From Planctomycetota bacterium (GTDB taxonomy: Bacteria; Planctomycetota; PLA2; JAEUHO01), in contig JASJDY010000062.1 in NCBI GenBank assembly GCA_030065025.1, forward strand, positions 1 to 34,610: a DNA stretch of 34,610 nucleotides. The letters run 5' to 3'. Below are positions 1,332 to 14,036 of the stretch, piece by piece. The position numbers and the translations under genes were made by a program. The notes beneath the pieces were generated by a model. The model searched no databases, was not told the origin of the DNA, and worked only from the letters and a program-made list of their open reading frames with translations. How positions within the stretch are numbered: the first letter of the stretch is position 1; each line of letters opens with the position of its first letter.

Positions 1332-1340
1332 TCAGGCGTC
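1318..1340 (-). terminator. Hairpin overlapping the stop of the DUF3179 gene
   Basis: GACGCCTGAC (1318-1327), a GGC loop and GTCAGGCGTC (1331-1340) form a perfect 10-bp stem that includes the TGA stop at 1332-1334. There is no U-run on the minus-strand side, so it would be a U-less terminator or a 3'-end stabiliser. It lies between convergent genes and could serve both strands. Confidence 0.5.
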
Positions 1341-2411
1341 ACCCCATACCGTCGTCCCAGGGTGATTCGCGTACCACCCATACCACTCGCTCATCAGCCC
1401 GCGCAGCGGCGTGAGCCGCCTGCCGGCCAGGCGGCCCTCGACGCATGCGCCGTCCATCGTCCAGCGGCTACCCGTGTCCCGATCTCGCAGCACGCCCGCC
1501 TCGTCCCGCTCGAAGGCCAGCGTCCGCGCGCCCAGCCTCCGGTCGAACGCCGCCGCCGAGCGCGACGCCGCGTCGAACCACACCGTCACCGGCAGCGCGC
1601 CGAGCAGCTCCTCGACCACCGGCGTCTGCGCCAGCCGCTCGAACGGATAGGCGCGCGCACGCCCCTCCACCACGACGCCGTACAGCAGGGCATGCGGCGC
1701 GAAGCGCCCGTCCACGGTCTGGATGGTCGGCGTGAACGTCCGCGGAAAGCCCGCCGCGCCGCTGCGCGAGCCGTCCCGCGGGAAGTAGCCCTGGTCGCCC
1801 GGCTGGTCGATCCAGCGCTTCTCGCGCGCCAGCACGTCGGTCTCGGGGTGAAGCGCGCGCCAGTCCGCCCACGTGGTGTGCCGCCCCGTGGGGCTTCGGG
1901 CGAGGACGGTGCCCGCCATCTTCCCGGCGAAGCACTCGCCCGTCAGGTGCATCCAGAACGAGTTGCTCTGGTGGTCGTAGAGCACGGCCGTGCCCTGGTA
2001 GATGCCCTCGAAGCCGAAGGTCAGCCGCGTCCCTTCCACCACGGGATCGAAACCGATCCCCGACGAGCAGATCACTCAGTAGGTGACGGCGATGGGGATC
2101 CCGGCGATGACGTCGTTCACGACGTGGTGGTAGCTGATCATCGGCACCGGATAGGCCCGTGCGCGGCCGCCCAGCACCACGCCGAAGACCTCGTCGTCGG
2201 GGCGCAGCCACGTCGCCTCGTCGGCCGGCACCGTGCGCGGATCCGTCGCCGGCAGGAAGCGGTCGTGCTCGAGATAGAACTGCGAGAGCGGGAAGCGCCC
2301 GAGATGCGGCTCCGGCCGCGGCGTGGTGGCCTCCTCGTCGCCGGAGCCGGTCAGCCGCCACGCGCCGAACGCGAGCATCGCGAGCACCACGATCCAGAGG
2401 ACGACTCGCAC
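1332..2411 (-). CDS. DUF3179-family membrane-anchored protein, candidate selenoprotein (Sec112-x-x-Cys115)
   Basis: Read through the in-frame TGA at 2076-2078, this encodes 359 residues. The N-terminus (VVLWIVVLAMLAFGAW) is a single membrane anchor; the rest should be extracytoplasmic. Around the TGA the protein reads GGRARAYP...VVNDVIAG...AVTY-U-VICSSGIGFD, matching the DUF3179 pattern in which ...VTYCPLC...FD is conserved. The TGA therefore replaces the first Cys of CxxC, giving a UxxC redox-type motif. Similarity continues without a frame change downstream (LTGECFAGKMAG, HTTWADW). A second half-repeat (about residues 224-330) aligns with the first. The GTG start at 2409-2411 follows the hydroxylase stop by 5 nt; no strong ribosome binding site is seen. 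The function of DUF3179 is unknown to me; thiol or peroxide chemistry is inferred. The alternative is a nonsense mutation or sequencing error (TGC/TGT to TGA). Family call strong; Sec call probable. Confidence 0.8.
2043..2060 (-). promoter_or_regulatory. Candidate bacterial SECIS hairpin
   Basis: On the mRNA strand GGGAUCG (2060-2054), loop GUUU (2053-2050) and CGAUCCC (2049-2043) form a perfect 7-bp stem. The loop begins with GU, and its G is the 23rd nucleotide after the UGA. Known bacterial SECIS elements lie in the coding region directly after UGA, with a G in the first two loop positions and roughly 16-37 nt spacing (about 18 nt before the loop in E. coli fdhF). The stem encodes GIGFDP of the DUF3179 protein. 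Confidence 0.72.
2076..2078 (-). other. In-frame UGA, probable selenocysteine codon
   Basis: The mRNA reads ACC UAC UGA GUG AUC UGC, so the UGA stands at residue 112 between VTY and VIC. The frame is open for 111 codons before it (from the GTG at 2411) and 247 codons after it. The gene's real stop is also UGA (1332-1334), so recoding must depend on local context. Confidence 0.72.
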
Positions 2412-2416
2412 GCGAA

Positions 2417-3190
2417 CTACCGCGGCCGCCCCGTGCGGAAGACCACGTCCCACAGCGGCGAGCTCACGCCGTACATGCGCGTCCAGTACTTGTGATGGTG
2501 CGCGAGGTGCCACGCCTTCAGGAACTTGCCCCAGCGCGTCTTCGGACGCGCGTGATGCGTGTAGTAGTGCGTCATGTCGTAGACGATGTACCCGGCGAGC
2601 AGCCCCCCCATCGTGGCGAGCGCCTGGGCCAGCGGCAGCGGGATCAGAAGCAGGCCGAAGATGATCGCGCCAACGCCGAAGCCCGCGAGCGGCGGGAACA
2701 CCAGCCGCGTCGGATCCCACGGGTCGAGGTGGTGGATCCCGTGCGCGAGGAAGTGGAGCTTGCGGCCGAACGCGCTGCGCGGCCGGTAGTGGAAGAAGAA
2801 GCGGTGCAGCAGGTACTCAGTGAGCGTCCAGAGGACGAGGCCGCCGAGGGCCCACAGGGCCGCATATCCCCAGGCAAGCCCGGCCCACGCGATGGACCCG
2901 CCGATCAGCAGGGTCACCACCGGCACCCAGATGGCGAGGATCGTGCGCCACTGGGGGTGGCTCAGGGACTCCAGGAAGTCGCTGCGGAAGATGCGCACCG
3001 AGTCCGGCCAGCGGGTGGCGATCTTGTCGCCCGCCTCGAGGCGTGCCGCGTTCTCCTGCCGCGCGCGCTTGGGCGAGATGCCGTTGTGGACCCACGCGTC
3101 GTAGCCGTCGCCGACGTCCGCGACCTGCTCGAGGATCGGCTGCGAGAGATCCGGCGTGCGGGCCTCCTGCACTTGCGCTGCAACCGTCAT
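2417..3190 (-). CDS. Fatty acid 2-hydroxylase-like membrane enzyme (FA hydroxylase superfamily)
   Basis: This 257-residue protein carries the full di-iron His set of the fatty acid hydroxylase/sterol desaturase superfamily: HRFFFH (129-134), HFLAHGIHH (146-154), THYYTHH (207-213) and HLAHHHKY (228-235). The arrangement, including HHLDPWDPTRLVFPP and the KxLKxWHLxHHHK region, resembles the catalytic part of Scs7/FA2H, which 2-hydroxylates the acyl chain of sphingolipids. Hydrophobic spans lie near 84-105, 108-126 and 165-205. The family uses O2 and reducing equivalents at the membrane. No cytochrome b5 domain is fused. The chosen ATG (3190) removes an Arg-rich extension. The DUF3179 selenoprotein candidate starts 5 nt after the stop, so the two are very likely co-transcribed. 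The exact lipid substrate is not readable. Confidence 0.85.
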   Translation of the reverse strand: MTVAAQVQEARTPDLSQPILEQVADVGDGYDAWVHNGISPKRARQENAARLEAGDKIATRWPDSVRIFRSDFLESLSHPQWRTILAIWVPVVTLLIGGSIAWAGLAWGYAALWALGGLVLWTLTEYLLHRFFFHYRPRSAFGRKLHFLAHGIHHLDPWDPTRLVFPPLAGFGVGAIIFGLLLIPLPLAQALATMGGLLAGYIVYDMTHYYTHHARPKTRWGKFLKAWHLAHHHKYWTRMYGVSSPLWDVVFRTGRPR

Positions 3191-3247
3191 GCGTCCTCGC
3201 TCCACTCGGTCGACCGGGCGTCGGCGCGGATTGTACCCTTCGCCAGA

Positions 3248-3486
3248 CCGCATGTTGCGTGAAGCGCGCGTCGCCCTCGCGACAAGTCCTGTAGCGGCCG
3301 CGGGTTGCGCAGTCCGCAGCGGCGGATCAACTGCAACAGTGTGTTCTCGCGACGGATTCGCGTCCGAGGTCGAAGCCGAGGGGAGGAGGCGGGGCTGATC
3401 CCCCCTCTGACGAGCCTCGGCAATGAGATCGGGCGCGAAGACGAGCGAGAACCGCGCGACTCGGCCTGTGTTCATGCAACATGCGG
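3248..3486. repeat. Gene-free 239-bp segment bounded by 16-nt inverted repeats
   Basis: CCGCATGTTGCGTGAA at 3248-3263 is matched in inverted orientation by TTCATGCAACATGCGG at 3471-3486 (15 of 16). The segment fills the gap between two leftward genes. I see no target duplication or gene in it. It could be a small MITE-like element or a paired binding site in the promoter region of the hydroxylase gene. Confidence 0.45.
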
Positions 3487-12007: not shown

Positions 12008-13795
12008 TCAGCGCGGCTCTGCCACCACGCGGAACCCCAGGTTCGGCTCGTAGCGGTAGGGCTGCTCCCTGCCGCGGAACGCGGACCGTGTCTCGCGCAC
12101 CGGCGTGTCGAACGCCCCGCCGCGATGGATGCGGTGACGGCCCCCTCCGGGTCCGGACGGGTTCTGGACGACGCTCTCGTCGTAGGGCCCGGCCCAGTCT
12201 GCGCACCACTCCGCGGCGTTGCCGATCATGTCGTACAGGCCCCAGGGGTTGGCGCGGTAGCGCGCGACCGCCGAGAGGCCGGCCCGCCGATCGCTGCCCG
12301 GGAACCAAGACCAGTCTTCGCGTTTCTCGGCACTCGCACGGATCCGCCTTGGCCACTCGGTTCGGGCCGCCGAGTCTGCGACGTTGGCGTACAGCGTCGC
12401 CGCGGCCCGCCCCCCCTGCCAGGGGAACGGTCCCGAGCTGCCCGCGCGGCACGCGTACTCCCACTCGGCCTCGGTCGGCAGTCTGTAGGTGTGGCGGCCG
12501 TCCTGTTTCGTGAGCCATGCGCAGTACGCGTTGGCTCCGTCCCAGGAGACGGACGTGACGGGGGCGGAGGCGGCCAGATGCCCGGAGAGCCCGGACGGCA
12601 CCTGACCGAGGTGGCTCTTCCGGAAGCGGCGATACTGCGCGTTCGTCACCTCGGTGATCGACATGTAGAACGGCTTGGTGATGACGACGTTGTGCGGCGT
12701 CTCGTCCTCGCCCCGGCCCGCCTCCCCCATCGGGGAACCCATCACGAACCCGCCCGGCGGGATGAGCGCGAGGCGCATGCCTTGTGCGTTCTGGATCGAG
12801 ACCGGTAGCCCCTGGCGGGATGCAGCATCGCGCTGCTGCACGGAGAAGGGGCGTCGCGGCACGGGCCGCTCGACGTTGCGCCCCTTCAGGATGCGACGGC
12901 GCATGGATCGCTCGAACGCCTCGCGCTGACGATCGAGATTGCGCTTCGTACGCTTGCGCCGGCTCTCGTTCAGCTGAGAGCAGCCGTACAGCAGGGCGAA
13001 GATGACGAGCGCGACGGTCCAGCTGCCGCCCTTCGACCGCTTGCGCCGCCAGGCCTTCTTCGTGCGGTGGGGCGCGTCCAACAGCGGGGGCGCCGTCCTG
13101 GGCGCCGGAGGCGGCACCGGCTCGTGCTCCGGTTCGGGCTCAGGATCCGGCTCCGGGACCGGCTCGAAGCGTGGCGGCGGCGGCGGCACCGACGGGACGA
13201 CCACCGGAGCGGTCGGCGCACGCGGCTCGGGCGCCGGATCCGGCACGGGATCCGAGACCGGCTCGAAGGACGCACGCTGCGGTTCGGGCTGCGGCGCGGG
13301 CTCGGACGTGCTGACCTCGCGCACCGGCGCGGCGACGGGTGCCTCTTCCTCTTCGCGCTCGGACGCCCGCTCGCGCCGGCGCTCGGCGCGCCATGCGTCG
13401 AAGCCCTGATCGATGACGGGCGCGATCTCGTCCAGCGACTCCCACTTGTCGGGGACGTGGTAGATCGTCGGGTGGTGGTGCCTGAGCACACGCTCGTAGT
13501 CGGCGCGGTAGCGTCCTGTGGCGTAGTACCACTCGGCGAACGCGCGCCCTGCGGGGCTGAGATGCTCCTCCGTCAGCCGTCCGTCCATGAACTGGATGAG
13601 GTAGTCGCGCCCCGTGTACCAGCGGCGTTGCAGCCGGGCGTACTCCACGTCCTGCTGCTCGTGGTGCCAGTCGCTCGTGAGCTCGCGCTCGACGCACCAC
13701 GCGAGAAAGATCCCGATGTGCGTGCCGCCGGCCTTGCGCGGAACATCGCCGGGCAGCTCGGCCCGATGCGCGTCGACCTCGTCGTAGACCCTCAT
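12008..13795 (-). CDS. Membrane protein with N-terminal DUF7832-like domain and C-terminal SUMF1/FGE-like domain
   Basis: This 595-residue protein has three parts. Residues 1-140 (THIGIFLAWCVE, GRDYLIQFMDGRL, YHVPDKWESLDEI) resemble the DUF7832 type seen in immunity-like or regulatory proteins. A long Pro/Glu/Ala-rich low-complexity stretch follows, then one membrane segment near residue 260 (VALVIFALLYGC). The C-terminal domain, from about residue 340, is of the formylglycine-generating-enzyme type: GGFVMGS, ITEVTNAQYRRF, PVTSVSWDGANAYCAW, YRLPTEAEWEYACRAG, NAAEWCADW and RGGAFDTP...FRG. The Cys pair used by real FGEs in the RGGSF region is missing (RGGAFDTPVRETRS), so sulfatase activation is unlikely. 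Such non-catalytic domains often serve binding roles. The ATG at 13795 was chosen because the upstream extension is Arg/Pro-rich with no homology. Confidence 0.82.
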   Translation of the reverse strand: MRVYDEVDAHRAELPGDVPRKAGGTHIGIFLAWCVERELTSDWHHEQQDVEYARLQRRWYTGRDYLIQFMDGRLTEEHLSPAGRAFAEWYYATGRYRADYERVLRHHHPTIYHVPDKWESLDEIAPVIDQGFDAWRAERRRERASEREEEEAPVAAPVREVSTSEPAPQPEPQRASFEPVSDPVPDPAPEPRAPTAPVVVPSVPPPPPRFEPVPEPDPEPEPEHEPVPPPAPRTAPPLLDAPHRTKKAWRRKRSKGGSWTVALVIFALLYGCSQLNESRRKRTKRNLDRQREAFERSMRRRILKGRNVERPVPRRPFSVQQRDAASRQGLPVSIQNAQGMRLALIPPGGFVMGSPMGEAGRGEDETPHNVVITKPFYMSITEVTNAQYRRFRKSHLGQVPSGLSGHLAASAPVTSVSWDGANAYCAWLTKQDGRHTYRLPTEAEWEYACRAGSSGPFPWQGGRAAATLYANVADSAARTEWPRRIRASAEKREDWSWFPGSDRRAGLSAVARYRANPWGLYDMIGNAAEWCADWAGPYDESVVQNPSGPGGGRHRIHRGGAFDTPVRETRSAFRGREQPYRYEPNLGFRVVAEPR

Positions 13796-13948
13796 CTGCG
13801 CCCCAGTCTCGCATGCGACCCCGCTCCGTGTCGGCAGGCGGGCGGGGCGGTACCAGGATACGGCGCGTGGGACCGTTTGGGCGGCATGGACGGGATGGGA
13901 GGCCCCCCGAACCCGCGGTGACGAGCGCTGGCCCCACGTAACGGCAAC

Positions 13949-14036
13949 GGGCCGGGCAACCACTCCCCCTCGCTGCGCCCTTCGAGTCGCTACGCTCCCT
14001 CAGGGACTTCGTCTCGGGGTCGGGATGCCCCTACAG
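13949..14036. repeat. Palindromic repeat element A3
   Basis: It runs from GGGCCGGGCAAC at 13949-13960 to GATGCCCCTACAGG ending at 14036. It includes CACTCCCCCTCGCT, CTTCGAGTCGC and CTCAGGGACTTCGTCT. It matches A2 at 5527-5576 plus an internal block. It lies in the 282-nt gap between the HEAT-repeat gene and the SUMF1-like gene, which contains no gene. Confidence 0.7.

Follow-up and report, generated by a model that had tools for sequence, protein, structure and literature searches.

A planctomycete DUF3179 gene with a predicted selenocysteine codon: a new example within a recorded selenoprotein family

The question raised by this locus is whether a TGA that interrupts a DUF3179 gene is a stop codon or a codon for selenocysteine (Sec). 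In this study, we analysed the window (the whole stretch of 34,610 nucleotides from a Planctomycetota bacterium), in which an earlier note had read the TGA as Sec in a UxxC motif, followed by a hairpin of the bacterial SECIS type. The features of the locus are as follows.

1332-2411, minus strand: predicted Sec-DUF3179 coding sequence, 359 residues including U112, predicted GTG start at 2411, stop TGA at 1334-1332
2076-2078, minus strand: in-frame UGA, predicted Sec codon (residue U112, motif Y-U-V-I-C); of 58 distinct homologues, 39 have TGA here and 16 have Cys
2067-2069, minus strand: TGC codon of Cys115, predicted partner Cys of U112, nearly invariant
2043-2060, minus strand: SECIS-like hairpin, 7-bp stem GGGAUCG/CGAUCCC (2060-2054/2049-2043), loop GUUU at 2053-2050
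2417-3475, minus strand: FA_hydroxylase gene, with its end 5 nt ahead of the DUF3179 start; this adjacency is kept in several relatives

The frame from 2411 to 1332 has a single interruption, the TGA at 2078-2076 (codon 112). When the TGA was read through, the translation matched Pfam DUF3179 (PF11376) in one stretch over residues 54-353, with 210.7 bits against a cut-off of 27, and profile positions 5-292 of 292 were covered. The protein is a member of the family by this profile; no NCBIfam model matched it. The third-position GC of the frame was 0.946 before the TGA and 0.923 after it, and the other two frames were lower. The FA_hydroxylase gene lies directly upstream of DUF3179 in the lineage of the window. 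Elsewhere in the window, at 12008-13963, a DUF7832 domain and an FGE-sulfatase domain are joined in one protein.

DUF3179 copies were gathered both from named public genomes and from genomes related to that of the window at the level of the phylum or closer. Of these copies, 65 were aligned, 58 of them distinct around the site. The column of U112 held U in 45 copies (39 distinct), Cys in 17 (16 distinct) and H, N or S in one each, so that the UGA is aligned with the conserved redox Cys of the homologues (39 U, 16 C and 3 other among the distinct sequences). The nearest named relatives were Planctomycetota metagenome-assembled genomes (MAGs), and six at 63-68% identity all carried the TGA; a relative at 54% identity (L073) had Cys. 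More distant homologues were mostly from Acidobacteriota, including Bryobacterales. Orthologs from the same genus also carried the TGA, as did many separate public MAGs. No other in-domain stop was seen in the U copies of the set examined; homologues broken at other positions, which the earlier note had named as a sign against the Sec reading, were looked for and not seen. When U was counted as C, this column and W153 were the only invariant columns among 51 aligned sequences, an alignment that did not take in the single H, N and S copies. Sec is commoner than the Cys form of DUF3179 in the lineages sampled.

The Cys form shares the same domain and was found in a second copy in the genome of the window (contig C92, L001), and in Haloarchaea, Deinococcus and Thiothrix plasmid copies. 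Unlike the window gene, the C92 copy has Cys at the U column and no TGA. On the Thiothrix plasmid (L117:2511-3789), DUF3179 has a GDCCVxC (seleno)protein as its neighbour, with a thioredoxin-domain protein close by. In each of the genomes HRbin08 and HRbin10 (L074:4016-6661 and L079:4016-6750), an AhpC/TSA thioredoxin-fold gene is followed by two DUF3179 genes in tandem, both of which contain the TGA.

The hairpin of the window gene was then compared with bacterial SECIS elements. It begins 16 nt after the UGA and its first loop G is nucleotide 23, exactly where the earlier note had placed it. Published constraints are a loop of 3-9 nt, a stem of 4-16 bp, a G in the first two loop positions, a loop 16-37 nt after the UGA and a minimum free energy of -7.5 kcal/mol or lower (PMC13188914). 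The window hairpin falls within them, with the loop GUUU 22 nt downstream of the UGA, a stem of 7 bp and -10.8 kcal/mol. Like the bacterial SECIS (model in PMC13188914 Fig. 2; E. coli fdhF), it is a short coding-region stem-loop just after the UGA with a G at the loop start. Its 45-nt fold had z = -1.48, being equalled in stability by 17 of 200 dinucleotide shuffles, and the hairpin was equalled by 6 of 100 synonymous recodings. Taken alone, the window hairpin is only suggestive.

We therefore looked at the hairpins of the homologues. In each, the most stable hairpin whose loop has a G at position 1 or 2 was compared with synonymous recodings of the same codons. The distinct U copies had a mean of -10.1 kcal/mol compared to -5.2 when recoded (p 1.6e-10), whereas the non-U copies had -4.4 against -4.4 (p 0.98), p-values that overstate independence because the sequences are related. 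The aligned non-U copies, which did not include the plasmid copies, thus had no enriched SECIS-type hairpin. The minimum distance from UGA to loop was 16 nt at first, which missed the acidobacterial loop at 15 nt, and was relaxed once to 14 after inspection. Three registers were found: GUUU or AGUUUC at 21-22 nt (the group of the window), CGUGU at 20 nt and GGUCU at 15 nt (Acidobacteriota). The planctomycete loops GUUU, AGUUUC and CGUGU are unlike that of the bacterial SECIS model, and the acidobacterial distance is one below the 16-37 stated for it. Compensatory stem changes were counted in the first two registers, with 11 and 16 cells altered on both sides; none of 500 shuffles reached these counts, which were also far above slid controls. 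In a Cys ortholog of the same subfamily (L038 and L073, one sequence), most of the stem pairing is lost and the motif is otherwise the same, CVVCSSGIAFDP. One ortholog (L091) keeps the stem and has no G at the loop start. The set assembled here offers Sec orthologues that have the RNA hairpin and matched Cys orthologues that lack it. The claim that a TGA next to such a hairpin is not chance was upheld by the hairpins of the homologues and not by the window hairpin alone.

Next, the machinery for Sec was searched for in the genome of the window, an assembly that is 89% complete in 285 contigs. A complete selA was found, with selD just after it. The active-site codon of this selD (L018, G000:C201:23976-24893; motif GGUAAK) is an in-frame TGA, and the gene probably encodes a selenoprotein itself; a hairpin with a G-starting loop was predicted 22 nt after its TGA, not beyond shuffles. 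Neither selB (family profiles and a congener SelB query) nor tRNA-Sec (families and a congener tRNA query) was found in the assembly, where only other translation GTPases and ordinary tRNAs matched. By comparison, selB was over the cut-off in all five congeners and in all six other family members examined, and tRNA-Sec with a TCA anticodon was found in four of the five congeners. The expected machinery was thus recovered in part in this genome and more fully in its congeners, which contradicts an absence of Sec machinery and supports a lineage that uses Sec. Assembly incompleteness is the likeliest reason for the two missing genes, although losing both of these apparently unlinked loci at 89% completeness would be somewhat unlucky. 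Across genomes, selA or selB was present in 25 of 27 with a TGA-bearing DUF3179 and in 11 of 17 in which DUF3179 occurred solely without the TGA (p 0.04). The two TGA-bearing genomes with neither gene over the cut-off (G016 and G075) may reflect either incompleteness or loss of Sec use.

These results were weighed against other readings of the TGA. If it were a true stop, the gene would be a pseudogene or would encode a truncated product of 111 residues, its second half a relic. The missing selB and tRNA-Sec speak for such a stop, but both the full DUF3179 similarity and the codon GC bias continue after the TGA, and 39 distinct homologues have TGA at exactly the U112 column and none elsewhere in the domain, which leaves this reading very improbable. 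Readthrough without Sec, in which a near-cognate or suppressor tRNA would insert Trp or Cys, is about as improbable. It would fit a genome in which tRNA-Sec was not found, but the DUF3179 gene itself terminates at TGA, the U112 column is Cys in other homologues, no copies other than those with TGA show enrichment of a bSECIS-type hairpin, and selA and selD are present. Least credible of all is a sequencing or assembly error that turned a Cys codon into TGA, since the same TGA, with a co-varying hairpin, is shared by same-genus orthologs and many separate public MAGs, dozens of genomes in all. On the homologue comparison, which establishes the case, the window gene is almost certainly a DUF3179 selenoprotein gene in which the TGA at 2078-2076 is decoded as Sec, and we infer that Sec is incorporated at U112.

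The earlier note had also proposed DUF3179 as a new selenoprotein family, a claim that falls to the published record. Two reviews, PMC9312934 (2022) and PMC13188914 (2026), already count DUF3179 (PF11376, UxxC/T) among the selenoprotein families, and the earlier of them cites Zhang and Gladyshev 2007 for it. Selenoproteins in Planctomycetes as such were also known (PMC4807772). The listed protein and that of the window share the Pfam family, the UxxC motif and one Sec, with UGA replacing Cys. However, the listed protein comes from work on the Olavius algarvensis Delta1 symbiont, whereas the copies studied here come from Planctomycetota (the window) and Acidobacteriota and have UVIC or UVVC, and in some cases UxxA; the two are likened by listing, not by alignment. 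In the part of the literature that was searched, no paper named DUF3179 in Planctomycetota or Acidobacteriota. The window gene is a well-supported new example within a selenoprotein family already on record.

We also examined the architecture of the protein, which is made up of the following repeats.

1812-2264, minus strand: N-terminal DUF3179 repeat, carrying U112 and C115; AF2 model pLDDT 95; nearest solved folds Rieske domains, none at E <= 0.001
1335-1739, minus strand: C-terminal DUF3179 repeat, homologous to the first, without the U/C pair; hhalign probability 99.8%

By profile alignment of its two halves, DUF3179 is an internal duplication. The structure model had a pLDDT of 88 for the whole protein and 95 for the first half, and a hydrophobic helix was predicted at residues 3-20, at the N-terminus. 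When the N-repeat model was compared with the PDB, the 15 best fold matches were all Rieske-fold proteins, including the NirD type, and the best match of the full model was PetC3 (probability 1.00, E 0.017). The Rieske-fold matches were consistent but weak, with best E values of 0.017 and 0.042 and all above 0.001. PetC3, NirD and Rieske ferredoxins are thus the nearest solved folds to the predicted repeat, but a profile comparison of DUF3179 with five Rieske ferredoxins gave no similarity (probability about 1% or less), and no PDB sequence was matched by the family profile. The model of positions 1335-2411 was also matched by a giant-virus protein, A0A1V0SD44 (Indivirus), at E 1e-6. The Rieske ligand pattern is CxH...CxxH. 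In the window protein there is no CxH before U112 (S93-Y94-H95), and the second motif is UxxC, not CxxH. DUF3179 is not a Rieske protein by membership, because this ligand set is incomplete.

Taken together, a mechanism can be proposed for the protein. The hairpin at 2060-2043 would direct the decoding of the UGA at 2078-2076 by SelA, SelB, SelC and SelD. In the protein, U112 would stand in for the invariant active-site Cys of DUF3179, with C115 as its likely resolving partner, and the two may form a selenenylsulfide redox centre on the first of the two repeats. In three U copies (L030, L032 and L046), Ala replaces the second Cys (UPLA, UPVA); therefore, a selenenylsulfide to C115 cannot be universal, and their sequences suggest a different resolving thiol. 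The protein would be membrane-anchored, and its N-terminal hydrophobic helix suggests a domain that may face the periplasm. Its role may be that of a thiol/selenol oxidoreductase that takes electrons from a protein of the thioredoxin type, with both partner and substrate presumed. DUF3179 has a thioredoxin-type gene as its neighbour in HRbin08, in HRbin10 and on the Thiothrix plasmid, three genomes other than that of the window. The neighbour genes beyond the close relatives of the window are too varied to name a pathway. We consider the oxidoreductase role somewhat favoured.

A competing account of the function is that DUF3179 is a diverged tandem Rieske fold without the normal cluster, in which U/C112, H95 and C115 would lie in the former cluster-ligand loop and possibly bind a metal rather than form a dithiol-type centre. 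The fold matches to PetC3 and the NirD type point this way, and the spacing H95-x16-U/C112-x2-C115 resembles CxH...CxxH by count, but no match reached E <= 0.001, the profile comparison was negative and the Cys of the first motif is absent. We regard this account as unlikely, though not negligible. A still more speculative idea takes DUF3179 for a tandem Rieske-like fold that has no cluster. A selenol (Sec or Cys) would have replaced the iron-sulfur chemistry in the former ligand loop of the first repeat, and the protein would have diversified in its Sec form in both Planctomycetota and Acidobacteriota. To our knowledge, such a redox solution has not been described for the Rieske fold.

Returning to the selenoprotein reading, genes of this kind are often cut in two at the UGA by automated annotation, so that their products enter the record as two fragments or not at all. 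What this study adds to the recorded family is a large radiation of DUF3179 selenoproteins in Planctomycetota and Acidobacteriota, an internal duplication and a weak match to the Rieske fold. DUF3179 has been a family of unknown function, and the analysis provides it with a concrete hypothesis on both its fold and its redox chemistry.
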